Assembly (NCBI RefSeq): GCF_030406725.1
Contig: NZ_CP129107.1
Location: forward strand, 806,001 to 870,000
DNA from: Alteriqipengyuania flavescens
GTDB taxonomy: Bacteria; Pseudomonadota; Alphaproteobacteria; Sphingomonadales; Sphingomonadaceae
DNA length: 64,000 nt
Reading direction: 5' to 3'
This document shows positions 2,602 through 10,485 of the stretch, piece after piece. Under the pieces are notes generated by a model. The model saw nothing but the letters and a program-made list of their open reading frames with translations, had not been told where the DNA came from and did no database searches. Each line of letters opens with the position of its first letter. The stretch's first letter is position 1. A program made the translations under genes and the position numbers.

Positions 2602-3009
2602 ATGACCGCCCAAAAAGGCTCCGCCTTCCTGCTCAAGATCTCGGACGGCGCGCAGCCGCCCGCTTTCGAAACCGTCGCCGGCCTGCGCACCACGCAGATG
2701 TCGATCAACGGCGACACGGTCGTCGTCACCCACAAGGAAAGCGGCGGCTGGCGCGACCTGCTGTCGGGTGCAGGCACACGATCGGTGTCGGTCAGCGCGG
2801 CGGGGATCTTCCTCGGCAGCGCGGCCGAAAGCGCGATCCGCGCCCATGCGCTGGCAGGCACTATCGCGGATTATGAACTGTCGTTCGAAGGCGGCGAGAA
2901 ACTGCGCGGGCGCTTCCTCGTCCAGCGCCTCGACTATGCCGGCGATTTCAACGGAGAGCGGAATTACACGCTGCAACTGGAAAGCTCCGGCGCAGTGGTG
3001 CCGGCGTGA
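2602..3009 (+). CDS. Major tail tube protein, TP901-1 family (GTA gp9-like)
   Basis: This 135-residue protein is the likely tail tube subunit. Typical features are MTAQKGSAFLLKI at the N-terminus, VAGLRTTQMSINGDTVVVTHK, GWRDLLSGAGTRSVSVSAAGIF, and a strand-rich end with NGERNYTLQLESSG. It uses an ATG start with GGAGAA upstream. Its stop overlaps the GTG start of the next gene (GTGA), so the tail genes are translationally coupled. Confidence 0.9.
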   Translation: MTAQKGSAFLLKISDGAQPPAFETVAGLRTTQMSINGDTVVVTHKESGGWRDLLSGAGTRSVSVSAAGIFLGSAAESAIRAHALAGTIADYELSFEGGEKLRGRFLVQRLDYAGDFNGERNYTLQLESSGAVVPA

Positions 3010-3467
3010 CGCGCGCTCAAGTAGCCGCAGGCGGTAGCGCACAGACAGATCCCCGCGCTCAAGAAGCCGCAGGCGGTAGCGCACAAAAAGATCCCCGCGC
3101 TCAAGTAGCCGCAGGCGGTAGCGCAAAAACAGATCCCCGCGCTCAAGTAGCCGCAGGCGGTAGCGCCAACAAAGTGCGCGGCGAGGCGGAAATCGTGGTC
3201 GGCGCGCGCACACTTGTCTTGCGGCCGAGCTTCACCGCGCTCGTCGCTGCGGAAGAGGAGCTTGGTTCGCTGTTTGCGCTGGTCGAACGCGCGGGTGAAG
3301 GCCGCCTGGCCCTCTCCGAAATGGCGACCCTGTTCTGGCACTGCCTGCCGACCGGGGACCGGCCCGACCGAGAGGCGGTGGGCGAAGCGGTGATGGCAAT
3401 GGGCCTTGCCGCCGCAGCCAAACCCCTGCGGACCCTGCTCGGGCAAGTCCTGCAGGGCCGCGCCTGA
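3006..3467 (+). CDS. GTA gp10-family tail assembly protein with a repeated N-terminus
   Basis: The 153-residue product starts at a GTG overlapping the tail tube stop. Residues from about 57 to the end match the gp10 family: VRGEAEIVVGARTLVLRPSFTALVAAEEELGSLF, a later helix with MATLFWHCLP, and a C-terminal helix with LGQVLQ. These proteins act as tail tube/tape measure chaperones by position. The first ~55 residues are four near-identical 14-residue units (RAQVAAGGSA plus a short linker) encoded by a 42-base tandem repeat. A typical gp10 begins close to the EAEIVV strand, so the repeat is an extra N-terminal tail. Confidence 0.8.
   Translation: MTRAQVAAGGSAQTDPRAQEAAGGSAQKDPRAQVAAGGSAKTDPRAQVAAGGSANKVRGEAEIVVGARTLVLRPSFTALVAAEEELGSLFALVERAGEGRLALSEMATLFWHCLPTGDRPDREAVGEAVMAMGLAAAAKPLRTLLGQVLQGRA
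3012..3173 (+). repeat. In-frame 42-bp tandem repeat (about 3.9 copies) in gp10
   Basis: Units start at 3012, 3054, 3096 and 3138 (the last is about 36 bases). Each unit begins CGCGCTCAAG and contains GCCGCAGGCGGTAGCGC, with only a few differences between copies. Since 42 is a multiple of three, copy-number change keeps the gp10 frame open. Confidence 0.9.
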
Positions 3468-4248: not shown

Positions 4249-6585
4249 ATGGCCTATTGGCTTGCCCGGCAAAGGAACGGGCAGGAGACCGACTTCATCC
4301 AGCGCTTCGACCCGCGTTTCTGGACCGTCGATTTCCCGCGCCCGATGATGGGATCCGTCATCACTACCGCGCCCGATGTGCTCCGCGTCGATCTCGAATG
4401 CCATCACAAGGACGCACTCGCCGGGCTGATCTGGGCGAGCGAGGATACGCTCGACCACCCGCTCCTCGCCTATGTCACGGACCGCAATTACGAGCGCACG
4501 ACGCTGAGCTTCCGCTGGCGTTCGCAAGGCGTCTTGCCGCTCGATGCGGTCGACGGGCCGACGCTGACGATCGAGGGGCGCGATGCGGGCGGGGCGGCGC
4601 GCAGCTGGTTCGTGCGGCTGTGGAATTACGCGAGCGGGACGCCGCACGATGCGCGCATCACCTTGCCTTTCGGCGCGCTGTTCGGGGGCTGGACCGGCGA
4701 TGCGCCGTCGGAACAGGTGAACCCGCGCGACATCGACCGCATGTTCATTACGCTGCCCGTGACCGGTTACGATCCGCGCGCGGCCGACTTCCTGCCATCA
4801 CGCGCGAACGCCTGGGTCGAATTGAGCGAGATCGCCTGCGACGGGGAGCGGGCGATGCTGGAAATCGGCGACGTCATGCTGCCGCCGCACGATATCGGCA
4901 TGTGCACCGCTTACGACGATGCCTACAACCAGACGCCCGCGCGGCTGCTGCGCCAGATGCGCGGTCTCGGCTATCGCGGCGAGTTCGTCCATTACGTCGG
5001 GATGAGCCACTATTTCCGGCTCAAGACGCTCGAAGAGACCAATCTCGTCGTTACACAGAACGCGGCTTTGGCAACGCCGGCCGAAGCCTGGCATCGCGAC
5101 CTGTTTACGCACGCAATCGCTGCAGGATACACGCCGGTCGTGTCGCTCTCCTACGAACTGTTGGCGATGCACTGTCCTTCAGCGTGGCAGCAACGCGACC
5201 TGGCTGGCAATCCGGCCCTGACCGGATGGGATCCCCCTTCCGCCCTGCTCTCTCCGGCCAACGACGAAGCGATGGACTTCCTGCGCGGAACGGCGGCGTT
5301 GTTTGCCATCATCCTGCGGGACATCGGGGCGGAGCTGGAATTCCAGATCGGGGAGCCATGGTGGTGGATCATGCCGGACGGCGCGCCATGCATCTATGAC
5401 GATGCGGCCAGAACCGCGTTGGGCATTGCCGCGTCCGCTCCGCGAATCGACACGTTGCGCCGCGATCTGTCCGCATCCGAAAGGGAATTGCTCGATCGGG
5501 CAGGCCAGATTCTGGCGACCAGCACCCTGTCGATCCGCGACCGGGTCCGAAAGATTTTCGGCTGGACCGGACATGTCCGCCTTCTCGCGTTCACGCCCAC
5601 GGTCCTCGCGAAGGTTACGCCCGAACAATATCGCCTCAATCTGCCGGAAGGCTGGGCCTCGCCCGCATTTTCCCGCCTGCAACTGGAAGATTACGACTGG
5701 CTGACCGCGGGCGCCGATGCCTTGCGCCGCCAGGCCTATGCATTCGTCGATGCGCGGCTCGGCTACCCGCCGGACTTGCAGGACTATCTCGCCGGCTTCG
5801 TGCTGAGGGCGGACAATGCCGACGCGTACTGGCGGCGGATCGATGCAGGGCTCGACGAGGCCCGCAGCCGCAATATCGAGCGGCGCTTCGTGTGGGCGCT
5901 GCCGCAGGTCAATCGCGACGGCTACACCCGCCTTGCGCCATCACGGGAAGACGACATGCAAGCCTTCGACGATGTGCTTTATCCGCTCGCGCTCGGCCGG
6001 GATACGGCGGTGGCGCCCGAATTCTCGACGAATGTCATGGTCACCGCTTCGGGCCACGAGCGCCGGTCAAGTCTGTGGAGCGACAGCCGCCTGCATTTCG
6101 ATGTCGGGCCGGGCATCCGTTCGGAAAACGAGCTGGGCACGCTGATCGCTTTCTTCCGCGCCCGGCGCGGCGCGGCGCGCGGCTTCCGCCTCGGCGACCC
6201 GTTCGACTTCTCCTCCAACGGCATGACCGGGACGCCGACGGCTTTCGACCAGTTGCTCGGCACCGGTGACGGACTGCGCGCCGATTTCCCGCTCATGAAA
6301 TCCTATGGCGAGGCGGACGATCCGCAGCTGCGCCCGATCACCCGCCCGCGCGCCGCCACGGTCCTCGTCAGCGTCGACGGAGTCGTGGTGGGTGACTGGA
6401 CGCTCGAACCCGGCGGCATCGTCCGGCTCGCCAGCGCGCCCGCGGATGGCGCGGAAGTGCGCGCGGGCTTCCTGTTCGACGTGCCGGTCCGCTTTGCCGA
6501 AGACCGGCTCGATGTCAGCGGCACCAGCTTCGCTGCGGGCGAGGCGCCGAGCGTGCCGCTGGTCGAAGTGCGGGAAGTGCGATGA
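4249..6585 (+). CDS. Distal tail protein fusion: large N-terminal region with TIM-barrel-like part plus DUF2460 (gp12-like)
   Basis: The product is 778 residues, while a stand-alone DUF2460 distal tail protein has about 210. Residues ~573-778 look like complete DUF2460 (FDDVLYPLALGRDTAVAPEF, RRGAARGFRLGDPFDFSS, then PLVEVREVR). The ~570 residues before it are extra. Residues ~1-200 are strand-rich and may be a tail-tube or sheath-like decoration. Residues ~235-400 have an alternating strand/helix pattern with VVSLSYELL (E303) and FQIGEPWWW (E369), reminiscent of glycosidase-type TIM barrels. Sphingomonad homologues are, as far as I recall, annotated as non-contractile tail sheath or TIGR02217 proteins. 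It starts at the ATG at 4249, and its stop overlaps the hub gene start (ATGA). Domain assignment of the N-terminal region is inference. Confidence 0.75.
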   Translation: MAYWLARQRNGQETDFIQRFDPRFWTVDFPRPMMGSVITTAPDVLRVDLECHHKDALAGLIWASEDTLDHPLLAYVTDRNYERTTLSFRWRSQGVLPLDAVDGPTLTIEGRDAGGAARSWFVRLWNYASGTPHDARITLPFGALFGGWTGDAPSEQVNPRDIDRMFITLPVTGYDPRAADFLPSRANAWVELSEIACDGERAMLEIGDVMLPPHDIGMCTAYDDAYNQTPARLLRQMRGLGYRGEFVHYVGMSHYFRLKTLEETNLVVTQNAALATPAEAWHRDLFTHAIAAGYTPVVSLSYELLAMHCPSAWQQRDLAGNPALTGWDPPSALLSPANDEAMDFLRGTAALFAIILRDIGAELEFQIGEPWWWIMPDGAPCIYDDAARTALGIAASAPRIDTLRRDLSASERELLDRAGQILATSTLSIRDRVRKIFGWTGHVRLLAFTPTVLAKVTPEQYRLNLPEGWASPAFSRLQLEDYDWLTAGADALRRQAYAFVDARLGYPPDLQDYLAGFVLRADNADAYWRRIDAGLDEARSRNIERRFVWALPQVNRDGYTRLAPSREDDMQAFDDVLYPLALGRDTAVAPEFSTNVMVTASGHERRSSLWSDSRLHFDVGPGIRSENELGTLIAFFRARRGAARGFRLGDPFDFSSNGMTGTPTAFDQLLGTGDGLRADFPLMKSYGEADDPQLRPITRPRAATVLVSVDGVVVGDWTLEPGGIVRLASAPADGAEVRAGFLFDVPVRFAEDRLDVSGTSFAAGEAPSVPLVEVREVR

Positions 6586-7403
6586 GCCGCGTGTTCTTCC
6601 GCGACGAGCTCGAAGGCGTCGCCACCTTCTGGCGGATCGAGCGGCGCGACGGCGTGGCGCTGGGCTTCACCTCGCACGACCGAGCGCTCTGGCTCGATGG
6701 ACTGGAATACCGCGCCGCCCCCGGCATGGTCCCGACCGCGATCAGCCGCCGCGCCGACCTGAGCCGCGACAGCGCCGAAATCGAGGCGGCGCTGACTCAC
6801 GACGCGATCACCGCGAGCGACCTCGAAAGCGGACGCTTCGACGGGGCGCGAATCGTCGTCGGCGTGGTCGACTGGGAAACAGGCGACCATGCCGCGCTCT
6901 ATCACGGATCGATTGGCGGGATCGCCAGCGAGGGGACGCGCTTTTCCGCCGAACTGCGCTCTGCCAAGCACGACCTCCTGCGCGATGTCGTGCCGCGTAC
7001 CAGCCCCACCTGCCGCGCCGCTTTCTGCGGGCCGCAATGCGGGCTGAGCGCCGCGCGGTTCTCGCAGGAGGCCGCAATCGCTTCCGTCGATGCCGATGGC
7101 GAGGCGCTGACAGTCGAGGGGATTGCCGACGTGGGTCGCTACGCACTTGGCAGGTTGCGCTGGATCGACGGCGCGCATGCCGGTTTGTGGACTGAGGTCG
7201 CGGCGGTGCAAGGCGACTCTTTAGTTGTGAGGGTTATGCCCGATCCGCCGCCCGCGCCGGGCGACCGGGTGATCTTGTGCGAAGGCTGCGATCATACGCT
7301 GGCGACATGCGCCACCCGGTTCGGCAATGCCGTGAACTTTCGCGGGGAACCTTTCCTTCCGGGCAACGACCAGCTTGTCCGCCGCCCGCCGGCAAGCGGG
7401 TGA
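6582..7403 (+). CDS. Tail hub protein, DUF2163 family (GTA gp13-like), Fe-S cluster candidate
   Basis: This 273-residue protein matches DUF2163/TIGR02218: an opening with LEGVATFWRIERRDGVALGFTSHDR, a middle with VDWETGDHAALYHGSIGGI, and a Cys-rich C-terminal half (TCRAAFCGPQC, then CEGCDHTLATCATRFGN). The cysteine set agrees with the iron-sulphur cluster reported for the GTA hub. The start overlaps the distal tail stop by four bases and the stop overlaps the peptidase GTG start, so translation is coupled. It should form the ring at the tail tip to which the fibre and peptidase attach. Confidence 0.88.
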   Translation: MSRVFFRDELEGVATFWRIERRDGVALGFTSHDRALWLDGLEYRAAPGMVPTAISRRADLSRDSAEIEAALTHDAITASDLESGRFDGARIVVGVVDWETGDHAALYHGSIGGIASEGTRFSAELRSAKHDLLRDVVPRTSPTCRAAFCGPQCGLSAARFSQEAAIASVDADGEALTVEGIADVGRYALGRLRWIDGAHAGLWTEVAAVQGDSLVVRVMPDPPPAPGDRVILCEGCDHTLATCATRFGNAVNFRGEPFLPGNDQLVRRPPASG

Positions 7404-7822
7404 TCGCTCACGCGGCGCCCGGCCTGCGACTGGCCGAGGCTGCCATTGGGCTGGTCGGGACGCCCTTCCGGCTCGGCGGACGGGATCAGGCCACCGGTCT
7501 CGACTGCGTGGGACTGGTTGCCGAGAGCCTGCTCAGGGCCGGCTTCCCCGTGGCGGCGCCGCATGGATATGCCCTGCGCAATCTTTCGATCGCCCGCTGG
7601 CTGCCATTCGCAGGCAAGGCAGGATTGCGAGTGGCAGTCGGGCCGATCCTGGCCGGCGATGTCGCGCTTTGCCGGCCCGGCCCCGGCCAGCATCACTTGC
7701 TCATACACGTCGCCGGGGACCGCTTCGTTCACGCCCATGCCGCGTTGCGGCAAACGGTTCTAACGCCCGGACCCGTGCCCTGGCCGGTCGAGGCCCGCTG
7801 GCGGCTCCCGCAAGAAGGATAA
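7400..7822 (+). CDS. NlpC/P60-type cell wall peptidase (GTA gp14-like)
   Basis: This 140-residue protein is a tail-associated peptidase expected to open peptidoglycan during DNA delivery. The catalytic Cys is in TGLDCVGLV and the His in GQHHLLIHV, preceded by the usual VGTPFRLGGRD loop. It starts at a GTG overlapping the hub stop (GTGA); a longer in-frame extension upstream overlaps the hub gene and lacks conserved features. Its size is normal for gp14. There is no signal peptide, as expected for a virion component. Confidence 0.85.
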   Translation: MIAHAAPGLRLAEAAIGLVGTPFRLGGRDQATGLDCVGLVAESLLRAGFPVAAPHGYALRNLSIARWLPFAGKAGLRVAVGPILAGDVALCRPGPGQHHLLIHVAGDRFVHAHAALRQTVLTPGPVPWPVEARWRLPQEG

Positions 7823-7828
7823 TCGGTC

Positions 7829-10021
7829 ATGGCAACAGTAGTCTTCGGCGCGGTCGGCACCGCGCTCGGCGGCCCGGTGGGCGGCGCGCTGGGCGCGCTC
7901 CTCGGCCAGCAGGTCGACAATGCGATCTTCAAGGCGCCGGTGCGCCAAGGGCCGCGCCTCAACGAACTGGCGGTGACCACGTCCAGCTACGGCATGCCTA
8001 TCCCCCGCGTTTTCGGGCGCGTGCGGGTACCCGGCACCATCATCTGGGCGACCGAGATTCGCGAAAGCAGCGAAACCAGCGGCGGCGGCAAGGGAAGCCC
8101 ATCGACCACCAGCTACAGCTATTCAGCCAGCTTCGCGGTCGCCGTCGCCAGCCGGCAGGTCGGCGGGATCGGGCGCGTCTGGGCCGACGGCAATCTGCTG
8201 CGGGGCGCTGCGGGCGACCTGAAGATCGGCGGCACCATGCGCGTTCATACGGGCAGCGGCGACCAGGGCCCGGATCCGCTGATCGCCAGCGCCATGGGCG
8301 CGCATTGCCCCTCGTTCCGCGATTGCGCCTATGTCGTGTTCGAAAACCTCCAGTTGCGGGAATTCGGCAGCCGGATCCCGGCCCTGACGTTCGAAGTGCT
8401 CGCCGACGGCGACGAGGTGTCAGCCGCGCAGTTGCTGGAGAAGTTGGGCCGGCCCGTCGAGGACCGCCGTCCCCTGAGCGGCCTGGCGGGGATGACTGAT
8501 GACGGCGGGGGCTTCGCGTCTATCCTAAAGACTCTCGACAGCGTCTATCCCATCGCACTGGATGTCTCGGGGGATGTGCTTTCCCTCGCTGCGGCGGATG
8601 CGGAAGGGCAGCCGGTCCACCAGCTTCCCGAGGCGGCTGCATTATCCGGCGAAGATGACGGCTTTTCCCCCCGCAACGGAAGCGCGCGGATGCGCGCAAG
8701 CGGCGAAGAAGCCGTGCCGACCGCGCTGAGGCACTACGATGCGTCGCGCGATTACCAGCCCGGCGTGCAGCGCGCCGGCGGACGCAGCGAAACGGGTCGC
8801 CCGCAGACTATCGAACTGCCCGCCACCATCGCGGCGGAAGATGCGCGCGGACTTATCGCTGCCGCCGCGGACCGCGCGCGTCAATCGCGCGAACGCTTGA
8901 GCTGGCGTCTCGCCGAGCTGGATCCTGCCATCGGTCCGGGGGCGATCGTCACGCTTCCCGGTCGGCGCGGCACATGGCGCGTCGACGGTTGGGAATGGAT
9001 CGGCAGCGGGGTGGAGCTGGCCCTGACACGTCAGGTGACGCGAACCGCGCTTGCGACAACGCCGGCAGACCCTGGAAAATTCCAACCGATAGAGGACCTC
9101 GCGGCCCTGCCGACAATCCTCCAGGCGTTCGAAGTGCCACCGGCGACCATTCCAAACGGCGCGGGCCGCCGCGTCACCGTCGCTGCCGGCGCTTCCGGCG
9201 CAGGCTGGCCCGGCGCCGCGCTTCACAATGTGGTGGCCGACAGCCTCGTGCCCGTCGGCGGCATCGGACCACGGCAATCGGTGCTCGGGATTCTGGCTGC
9301 CGACCTGCCCTCGTCACCATCCTTACTGCTTGAACCGCAAGCCACGCTCGAGATCGAGCTCGCCAACGCTGTACACACGCTCGACAGCACGACGCCGGAA
9401 TCGCTCATGCTCGGGGCCAACACGCTCAGGGTCGGTGGCGAAATCGTGCAATTCGTCCACGCCGAAAGAATGGATGGCTCCGTGTGGCGCCTCACCGGCC
9501 TGCTTCGCGGAAGGCGTGGGACGGAGGGCGCTGCCATGGCGGGCGCGACCGCGGGCACCGATGTGGCCCTGCTAAACGCGAATGTAATCGAAATCACGGA
9601 GGAGGCATTGCCATCCTGGTCGGTGGCACTCGCCGCGCTCGGCCTCGGCGATGCGGAGCCCGTGCTGGCCCAGATCGACCATCGCGGCGCTTCCTTCGCG
9701 CCCCCCGCCCCGGTCCATCCGCGTATCGTCAGGTCCGGCACCGGTCAGATGAGCTTGTCATGGATGCGGCGCGCGCGGGGAGGCTGGGACTGGTCGGGTG
9801 CCGTGGAAATACCCCTCGTCGAAGACCGGGAAGCCTACCGGGTCGGTATCGGCGACATCGACGCCCCGCTGCGGTTCTGGGACGTGGAGACCCCGAAGCT
9901 GAATATCTCGATCGATCAGTGGGGCAGCTTCCGAACCGATTACGCCGGACTGGCTCTATGGGTGCGGCAACTCGGCACCTTTGGACAGTCTCCCCCCACC
10001 CTTCTGACAGTTTTGGCCTGA
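7829..10021 (+). CDS. GTA host-specificity / baseplate 'megatron' protein, short form (gp15-like)
   Basis: The 730-residue protein corresponds to the C-terminal part of Rhodobacter gp15. It has a hydrophobic Gly/Ala N-terminus (GAVGTALGGPVGGALGALLG), then SYGMPIPRVFGRVRVPGTIIWA and ASRQVGGIGRVWADGNLLRG. A phage-tail domain follows, with RQSRERLSWRLAEL, and a late RLTGLLRGRRGTE motif. Reference gp15 is about 1,300 residues and includes a GTA TIM-barrel domain that I do not see here, while the upstream gp12 fusion contains barrel-like sequence. It should contact the recipient surface. It starts at the ATG at 7829, six bases after the peptidase stop. Confidence 0.85.
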   Translation: MATVVFGAVGTALGGPVGGALGALLGQQVDNAIFKAPVRQGPRLNELAVTTSSYGMPIPRVFGRVRVPGTIIWATEIRESSETSGGGKGSPSTTSYSYSASFAVAVASRQVGGIGRVWADGNLLRGAAGDLKIGGTMRVHTGSGDQGPDPLIASAMGAHCPSFRDCAYVVFENLQLREFGSRIPALTFEVLADGDEVSAAQLLEKLGRPVEDRRPLSGLAGMTDDGGGFASILKTLDSVYPIALDVSGDVLSLAAADAEGQPVHQLPEAAALSGEDDGFSPRNGSARMRASGEEAVPTALRHYDASRDYQPGVQRAGGRSETGRPQTIELPATIAAEDARGLIAAAADRARQSRERLSWRLAELDPAIGPGAIVTLPGRRGTWRVDGWEWIGSGVELALTRQVTRTALATTPADPGKFQPIEDLAALPTILQAFEVPPATIPNGAGRRVTVAAGASGAGWPGAALHNVVADSLVPVGGIGPRQSVLGILAADLPSSPSLLLEPQATLEIELANAVHTLDSTTPESLMLGANTLRVGGEIVQFVHAERMDGSVWRLTGLLRGRRGTEGAAMAGATAGTDVALLNANVIEITEEALPSWSVALAALGLGDAEPVLAQIDHRGASFAPPAPVHPRIVRSGTGQMSLSWMRRARGGWDWSGAVEIPLVEDREAYRVGIGDIDAPLRFWDVETPKLNISIDQWGSFRTDYAGLALWVRQLGTFGQSPPTLLTVLA

Positions 10022-10032
10022 GGACACCCGAT

Positions 10033-10485
10033 ATGACCGAACCCATTGCATTTGCATCCCTCACGAGCCGGCATAGCCTGCCGCTATTGTTCCCGGGCCA
10101 GGCGGCCAAGGAGGCGACCCTCAACGAAGCGATCGTGCGTCTCGACTGTCTCGTCCACCCCGTCATTCTTGGGGAAGCCCTATCCGACCCCGCGAATCCG
10201 AATGATGGGGACGCCTGGATTGTCGGCCCTGCAGCAGGCGGCGCATTCGCCGGGCGTGACGATGCAGTCGCCTTCTACGCCGCAGGCGCGTGGCATTTCC
10301 TCGATGCTTCCCCGGGATTGGTCGTATTCGACGCCAATTTGGCGATTTTCCGGCGATTCGATGCAGGTTGGCAACAGCCCACCGATATCTCGGACCCATC
10401 GGGCGGGACGAGCGTTGACAACGAAGCACGGGTGGCTATCGGCGAGATATGCCAACTGTTGCGGGAAGCAGGACTTCTCGCGTAA
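10033..10485 (+). CDS. DUF2793 protein, likely tail/fibre accessory at the end of the GTA cluster
   Basis: The 150-residue product fits DUF2793: FASLTSRHSLPLLFPGQAAKEATLNEAIVRLD, then DGDAWIVGPAAGGAFAGRDDAVAFYAAGAWHF. Such proteins are common at the distal end of phage and GTA clusters and are usually thought to be surface or fibre parts. It starts at the ATG at 10033 with GAGG about 11 bases upstream, so spacing is long. It ends the + strand GTA cluster; a hairpin follows. Confidence 0.75.
   Translation: MTEPIAFASLTSRHSLPLLFPGQAAKEATLNEAIVRLDCLVHPVILGEALSDPANPNDGDAWIVGPAAGGAFAGRDDAVAFYAAGAWHFLDASPGLVVFDANLAIFRRFDAGWQQPTDISDPSGGTSVDNEARVAIGEICQLLREAGLLA

Follow-up and report, generated by a model that had tools for sequence, protein, structure and literature searches.

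A putative gene transfer agent tail-tip operon in Sphingomonadales with an N4-sheath-family barrel fused to its distal tail protein and a megatron without the RcGTA-type barrel

Described counterparts of the genes considered here belong to two gene transfer agents (GTAs), the RcGTA of Rhodobacter and R4C, both of which have six copies of the distal tail protein, three of the hub and three of the megatron (PMC7296036, PMC10276861). The RcGTA megatron consists of iris (residues 1-46), adhesin-like (47-229), peripheral (230-744), central (745-984) and fibre-binding (985-1304) domains, and passage of the particle through the capsule has been proposed to occur via many oligosaccharide-binding sites on the distal tail protein, the hub, the megatron and the fibres (PMC7296036). 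In R4C, the peripheral domain of the megatron is predicted to be mannanase-like (PMC10276861). In phage N4, gp64 and gp65 form a six-fold non-contractile sheath around the tail tube; gp65 is the receptor-binding protein within the gp64:gp65 heterodimer, and the majority of the sheath copies may come off and make contact with the polysaccharide layer (PMC12633501). In this study, we analysed a window of 64,000 nucleotides from Alteriqipengyuania flavescens (Sphingomonadales; positions 806001-870000 of contig NZ_CP129107.1, below G000:C1), in which a GTA distal tail protein, gp12, carries a module of the N4 sheath family and the megatron, gp15, lacks its peripheral barrel.

On the evidence below, we consider it probable that these genes are the tail-tip operon of a Sphingomonadales GTA that bears glycan-engaging NCTSP adhesin or glycosidase modules around its tail tip and has a megatron without the RcGTA-type barrel. 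The gp12 gene starts with the ATG at 4249, and its reading frame, like that of gp15, is uninterrupted (Table 1). Three full Pfam domains, NCTSP_N, TIM-barrel_NCTSP and DUF2460, follow one another along the protein with E values from 8.7e-71 to 1.7e-153. The two NCTSP families, PF23844 and PF23845, score 301.8 and 511.2 bits (cut-offs 27) and are covered from end to end (profile positions 1-191 of 191 and 1-348 of 348), and the distal tail family TIGR02217 scores 191.8 bits (cut-off 136.65) over residues 572-775. The distal tail part, of the Rcc01695 family, is all that NCBIfam detects in gp12, and the sequence matches in the PDB include Rcc01695, N4 Gp64 and the N4 sheath. RcGTA Rcc01695 (6TBA) and the R4C distal tail protein, or Dit (8GTC), resemble gp12 in its DUF2460 part (residues 572-775; E 6.3e-42 and 5.6e-35), whereas at 210 and 214 residues they have no counterpart of its N-terminal module. 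An earlier reading of the window from its sequence only had pointed to about 570 extra N-terminal residues, part of which looked like a glycosidase-type TIM barrel with acidic residues at 303 and 369, and had proposed structure prediction and a profile search of this region. Approximately 565 residues do precede the distal tail part, both methods find the barrel fold there (profile match over residues 212-559, E 1.7e-153, and eight predicted strands), and both residues are invariant glutamates.

The AlphaFold2 (AF2) model of gp12, built from 64 sequences (the window and related loci), has a predicted local distance difference test score (pLDDT) of 90.8 and shows a beta-rich domain, then the barrel, then the distal tail protein, part of which is less certain (pLDDT below 50 at 593-609). 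From the secondary structure of this model, we read the eight barrel strands as residues 216-221, 245-250, 295-301, 364-368, 442-448, 476-480, 511-514 and 545-549. In such barrels, the ends of strands 4 and 6 are frequent sites of catalytic residues. Conserved acidic residues stand at the corresponding strand ends of gp12, Glu369 and Glu480, as in a glycoside hydrolase fold; these and Glu303 are invariant in an alignment of eight sequences, five of which are 29-34% identical to gp12, and also in a 64-row alignment. The top Foldseek match of the model is an N4 gp64 chain (E 2.4e-23), followed by gp65 and the R4C distal tail protein, and then by dextranase, glycoside hydrolase family 31 (GH31) enzymes and PgaB. 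Using VIA-align, gp64 superposed on gp12 with Z 29.1 and a root-mean-square deviation (rmsd) of 2.5 over 300 residues, and sugar-active barrels reached Z 19-23, including beta-galactosidase (1kwg, 22.9), beta-amylase (3voc, 22.4) and the C-terminal glycoside hydrolase domain of PgaB (4p7l, 22.4). The PgaB domain is a TIM barrel like that of gp12 (rmsd 3.8 over 310 residues), but the two share 11% identity, and the glycosidase resemblance of the gp12 model is one of fold only. The RcGTA and R4C megatrons were absent from the best 50 VIA-align matches of the model, from which we draw no conclusion.

Judged by sequence and predicted fold, the gp12 barrel is homologous to the receptor-binding sheath of N4, with gp65 corresponding to its first part and gp64 to most of the barrel. 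In phmmer searches with the N4-like phage vB_Eco_SPSP, gp12 residues 8-91 and 215-294 align to gp65 residues 47-130 and 374-457, and gp12 297-564 to gp64 136-413; the NCTSP profile likewise covers gp65 48-423 and gp64 110-410 in this phage, and the same split is seen in loci L296-L304. This division of the profile suggests that in N4-like phages barrel strands 1-2 belong to a different protein from the remaining strands, and that their barrel may be assembled from two chains. The N4-like phages L288, L296-L304 and L318 have NCTSP_N and the first barrel part in a gp65-like protein and the remainder in a gp64-like one. The likeness to the N4 sheath, with gp65 as its major and gp64 as its minor protein (PDB 9YF4, 9YF5, 9LC0), extends to sequence and, for gp64, to superposition on the gp12 barrel, but N4 is a podovirus and uses two chains, whereas gp12 belongs to a GTA and is one chain fused to a distal tail protein, and no counterpart was found in gp12 for gp65 beyond about residue 457. 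The sequence-only reading had suggested a fusion of the distal tail protein with a sheath-type layer, and both this homology and the Pfam names are in accord with that.

Other phages carry relatives of the module. Altogether 426 phage records match gp12, and the sole one covering at least 80% of it is an unverified 5.4-kb scaffold. Among the matches are N4-like gp64, phi92 gp142 (which its annotation likens to rV5 gp034) and their relatives. Coliphages that rely on the NGR glycan, which is NfrA-dependent, also possess homologues. Records of Acinetobacter, Pseudomonas and Campylobacter phages also match, and we know of no link between these phages and the NGR glycan. The phi92 gp142-type lateral tail fibre proteins and the NCTSP proteins of Lokivirus and Acinetobacter phages share NCTSP_N and the barrel with gp12 at approximately 25-38% identity, but, unlike gp12, the four examined have no distal tail domain. 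Loki and Halfdan, two Lokivirus phages, have an NCTSP protein of about 900 residues whose gene comes after one annotated as distal tail protein. A lateral tail fibre that Vequintavirinae and related phages have in common has been described as a homologue of N4 Gp64, in a paper that names enterobacterial common antigen as receptor (PMC8594841), and phi92 Gp142 is listed as a glycosidase in a review table (PMC5380687).

Although gp15 shares the iris helix and the adhesin-like, central and fibre-binding parts with the RcGTA and R4C megatrons (Rcc01698; NF048004), their peripheral barrel domain (RcGTA 230-744) is absent from it. The sequence-only reading had put gp15 at 730 residues rather than about 1,300 and had seen no TIM barrel in it, and both statements hold. 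The protein scores 371.8 bits against the GTA_megatron model NF048004 (cut-off 800), and a profile search for GTA_TIM (PF13547) found no match in gp15 or in the whole genome. The AF2 model of gp15 (pLDDT 85.8) begins with a long helix, continues mostly with strands and a few helices, and, in our reading of its secondary structure, contains no alpha/beta barrel. It aligns with 6TBA (Z 27.4 over 332 residues) and with the 8GTC megatron (Z 25.8 over 638 residues spanning 65-1438). Since residues 9-193 of gp15 align in phmmer to RcGTA megatron residues 20-204 and residues 290-674 to 857-1248, the domain borders identify the peripheral domain as the missing part. In all 12 long RcGTA-type megatrons compared, the first segment matched extends to profile position 191-197, with the second starting at 209-329, which, at the level of sequence profiles, gives the peripheral domain a clean module border at its start and a looser one at its end.

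A survey of the fusion across Sphingomonadales, which the sequence-only reading had also proposed, covered 147 genomes, 99 from the family of the window and 48 from outside it. The NCTSP barrel was found in 77 of them and GTA_TIM in none; DUF2460 was present in 80, including all 77 with NCTSP, and in 73 of these 77 our reading of the profile search listings places NCTSP and DUF2460 in one open frame of at least 600 residues. In a sample of 289 genomes from the class, five had the NCTSP barrel, 32 had GTA_TIM and none had both. In the 80 related loci taken from genome contigs (out of 455 relatives), gp12, gp13, gp14 and gp15 always stand in the same order on one strand, and 76 of the 79 gp15 frames of at least 300 residues span 713-738 residues, the three others being shorter (353, 407 and 530).

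Three layouts of these genes were distinguished. Layout A, of the RcGTA type, comprises the distal tail protein, the hub, the peptidase and a megatron with GTA_TIM, and all four genes are present in 11 of 12 loci. Layout B, that of the window, has NCTSP fused to the distal tail protein and a short megatron. Layout C, seen in phages and prophages, joins NCTSP to the hub. It was found in 11 loci, L005 and L370 being one place, with a separate distal tail protein in nine and a short-type megatron in ten, the rest being cut by the locus end. Among 390 loci baited with the NCTSP or GTA_TIM family, which overlap one another, 238 combine the NCTSP barrel with a short megatron, 28 combine GTA_TIM with a long one and none has both barrels; the other 124 have no full megatron in the fetched stretch or neither barrel. 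In addition to the GTA fusion, two Sphingomonadales genomes carry a second set (G298:C14 and G305:C6; L371, L372) with a separate distal tail protein and an NCTSP-hub fusion, which is perhaps a prophage. Numerous contigs of about 13-16 kb that have the window's layout (L139-L218, from IMG/VR) are catalogued as viral, and L138 (MT840053), a phage scaffold from human faeces that is unverified, belongs to the same type.

In the megatron tree, each layout forms one side of a branch, with Shimodaira-Hasegawa-like approximate likelihood ratio (SH-aLRT) support of 88, 96 and 89. The distal tail tree divides the fused group in two and does likewise with the RcGTA group, and in the NCTSP tree the GTA copies are not nested within the phage copies, their own grouping being weak (52/16). 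No direction of transfer could be read from these three trees, which were built to find a donor. The ratio of nonsynonymous to synonymous substitution rates (omega), by a simple Nei-Gojobori calculation on 14 non-overlapping pairs out of 300 with dS below 1.2 among 45 sequences, is 0.10-0.36 over the gp12 gene and 0.14-0.41 for the barrel, and at most 0.41 in all three domains. By this sequence measure, the NCTSP module is under purifying selection.

If the tail tip is put together as in RcGTA and R4C, where the distal tail protein is a hexamer and the hub and megatron are trimers, six barrels would stand where RcGTA has three; that number is what the distal tail protein would provide. The six NCTSP modules would surround the tail tip in place of three megatron barrels, and their clefts, with the invariant Glu369 and Glu480, would bind and perhaps cleave a surface polysaccharide. 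The particle could in this way pass the glycan layer, after which the hub and the megatron iris would dock on the outer membrane. Several points weigh against this proposal. Where the module sits on the particle is deduced from the distal tail protein alone, the GTA of A. flavescens is known from its genes alone, and catalysis by the barrel is a prediction. N4 gp64 has instead been assigned a poly-N-acetylglucosamine deacetylase domain by Phyre2 prediction (PMC8594841), and no measured glycosidase activity of N4 gp64 or gp65 was found in the available parts of the literature. In phiAxp-3, whose receptor is lipopolysaccharide and whose sheath is N4-like, the part of the sheath that binds lipopolysaccharide is 795-1195, outside the part homologous to gp12 (PMC5862860). 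Since gp12 also matches phages not known to be linked to the NGR glycan and phiAxp-3 uses lipopolysaccharide, the predicted module is best described as a putative glycan-engaging head, for which enzyme activity is only possible.

The alternative that survives best is a purely structural one, which we regard as unlikely. In that case, the six NCTSP copies would fold back along the short tail tube as a sheath or collar that stiffens or shields it, and the barrel would be a dead enzyme. The closest structure is indeed a six-fold non-contractile sheath around a tube (PMC12633501), and the Pfam family names say sheath. However, the same N4 protein is also a receptor-binding part, and the invariance of the acidic strand-end residues in eight proteins, the divergent ones included, is more than a mere scaffold would need. 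In addition, other phages carry the module on the hub or without either tail domain, where a tube sheath is not obvious.

A physical move of the barrel from gp15 to gp12, which the sequence-only reading had considered, is very improbable. It would account for the loss of about 570 residues from one protein and the gain of about 565 in another, and for two glycosidase-type barrels that never share one of the 390 loci. However, in hhalign the NCTSP barrel matches GTA_TIM with a probability of 1.4%, and the full NCTSP module matches GTA_TIM with 0.6% and the whole peripheral domain with 0.4%, compared with 100% (E 1.3e-70) for N4-like gp64; the profiles are shallow (effective number of sequences 2.1-3.1), and the two barrels may still go back to a distant shared ancestor. 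Our own GTA_TIM profile, with all filters off, gave no match below E 0.8 in the NCTSP barrels and none below E 1 in the 79 short gp15 frames, and the Foldseek leaders of gp12 are the N4 proteins and the R4C distal tail protein, ahead of the sugar-active enzymes. This lack of profile similarity led us to reject relocation. The simplest reading of the sequences is replacement: the RcGTA-type barrel is absent, and an N4-family barrel stands at another place. That the locus is a prophage remnant in decay, its fusion an accident, is scarcely credible, for although the gp12 frame is split or interrupted in four of the 77 genomes (G296, G312, G389, G393) and the module is partly lost in frame in two of the 73 (G320, G381), the frames are intact in the window and in those 73, the four genes are collinear in all 80 loci, and omega is low in every domain.

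The probable tail-tip operon lies within a larger cluster, in which terminase, portal, protease, capsid, tail tube, tape measure, distal tail, hub, peptidase and megatron genes occupy one strand. The capsid gene (inside the window) and the protease, portal and terminase genes lie upstream of the tail genes, and gp12 and gp13, like gp13 and gp14, overlap by a few bases. By this gene content, the locus is an RcGTA-like head-tail cluster. A gp10-like protein starts with several near-copies of a short unit, RAQVAAGGSA... (3006-3170 of the window), ahead of its conserved domain, which begins at residue 58. The cluster also codes for a GIY-YIG nuclease domain, located between terminase and portal (L390:7540-7761, G000:C1 ~803539-803760), and for a DUF6127 domain near the protease gene.

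Table 1. Positions in the window of the gp12 fusion gene and its parts, the short megatron and the adjoining tail genes
Feature	Position	Strand	Evidence
gp12 fusion gene, NCTSP module and distal tail protein, 778 aa	4249..6585	+	Pfam, NCBIfam, PHROGs, PDB sequence matches, AF2
NCTSP_N domain, residues 17-207, beta-rich in model	4297..4869	+	Pfam E 1.7e-90, AF2
TIM-barrel_NCTSP domain, residues 212-559	4882..5925	+	Pfam E 1.7e-153, AF2, Foldseek, VIA
Glu303 codon, invariant, after barrel strand 3	5155..5157	+	Alignments, AF2
Glu369 codon (QIGEPWWW); invariant candidate for catalysis, immediately following strand 4	5353..5355	+	Alignments, AF2
Glu480 codon (LEDYDW); invariant candidate for catalysis, at the final position of strand 6	5686..5688	+	Alignments, AF2
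DUF2460 / TIGR02217 distal tail protein domain, residues 574-775	5968..6573	+	Pfam, NCBIfam, Rcc01695 match E 6.3e-42
gp15 short megatron, 730 aa, without peripheral TIM-barrel domain	7829..10021	+	Pfam, NCBIfam, phmmer, AF2, structural alignment
gp15 ~residues 191-210, point at which RcGTA-type megatrons enter their barrel-bearing peripheral domain	8399..8458	+	Profile segments of 12 long megatrons
gp9 tail tube protein	2602..3009	+	Pfam
gp11 probable tape measure protein, 196 aa	3648..4238	+	NCBIfam weak (22.5 bits, cut-off 220), clearer by PHROGs
gp13 baseplate hub protein	6582..7403	+	Pfam, NCBIfam
gp14 NlpC/P60 cell-wall peptidase	7403..7822	+	Pfam
DUF2793 gene adjoining megatron, possible fibre or tip part	10033..10485	+	Pfam, PHROGs

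The occurrence of gp12 homologues in phages that depend on NfrA raises the question of a receptor. NfrA_C was found in 19 of the 147 order genomes. Outside the family of the window, it is present in 14 of 15 NCTSP genomes versus 2 of 33 others (Fisher p 3.5e-9), and counted by genus both occur in nine, NfrA_C only in two, NCTSP only in none and neither in ten (p 2e-4). Within the family there is no association (2 of 62 NCTSP genomes versus 1 of 37 others). As no NfrA_C match was found in the window's genome or in 60 of the 62 NCTSP genomes of its family, NfrA itself cannot be the rule, and it was discarded as a general receptor. The class sample has NfrA_C in 11 of 289 genomes, three of them among the 32 with GTA_TIM and one, a weak match (E 9.5e-7), in the layout-C genome G133.

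NfrB acts in making the NfrA-dependent glycan, a role in keeping with its NCBIfam name. Of three NfrA_C loci examined, two (L391 and L392, not L393) have as neighbour an NfrB-like glycosyltransferase with a motif for binding cyclic di-GMP. NfrB-like enzymes, called at E 1e-60 or better and all below the model cut-off of 1170 bits, occur in 103 of the 147 genomes; among 14 control genomes, E. coli alone matches. They are found in 73 of 77 genomes with NCTSP versus 30 of 70 without (p 1.6e-12) and, within the family, in 59 of 62 versus 28 of 37 (p 0.008). The window's genome has such a frame at G000:C1:511503-512933 (570 bits to NF011307), adjoining an open reading frame without assignment and an Alph_Pro_TM gene, with no NfrA_C neighbour. 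Because the genomes are related by descent, all these p values overstate the evidence; the association with NfrB is confounded by ancestry, GTA presence itself may be the correlate, and the result is a lead rather than proof. As a tentative and rather doubtful extension of the tail-tip proposal, Sphingomonadales GTAs might recognise recipients through a glycan of the class used by N4 and by phi92/rV5-like coliphages, made by NfrB-type synthesis and exported by NfrA or another exporter. The NCTSP barrel would then be the binding or cutting head, common by inheritance to lytic coliphages and a domesticated DNA-transfer particle, and glycan production would decide which cells become recipients.

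The component domains are catalogued in Pfam, so the parts were already known. In the available parts of the literature, neither the fusion of NCTSP to the distal tail protein nor a megatron lacking the barrel was found described for Sphingomonadales GTAs, and we found no mention of the exclusion between the two barrels. If our reading is correct, GTAs of an alphaproteobacterial order other than that of RcGTA use a different tail tip, with the barrel on a six-fold instead of a three-fold part, drawn from the N4 sheath family and not found together with the RcGTA barrel. One adhesion module would then be plugged into the distal tail protein, the hub or the sheath in different tails. The module and residues named here, and a candidate pathway for the receptor, would offer a way to ask how such particles choose their recipients.

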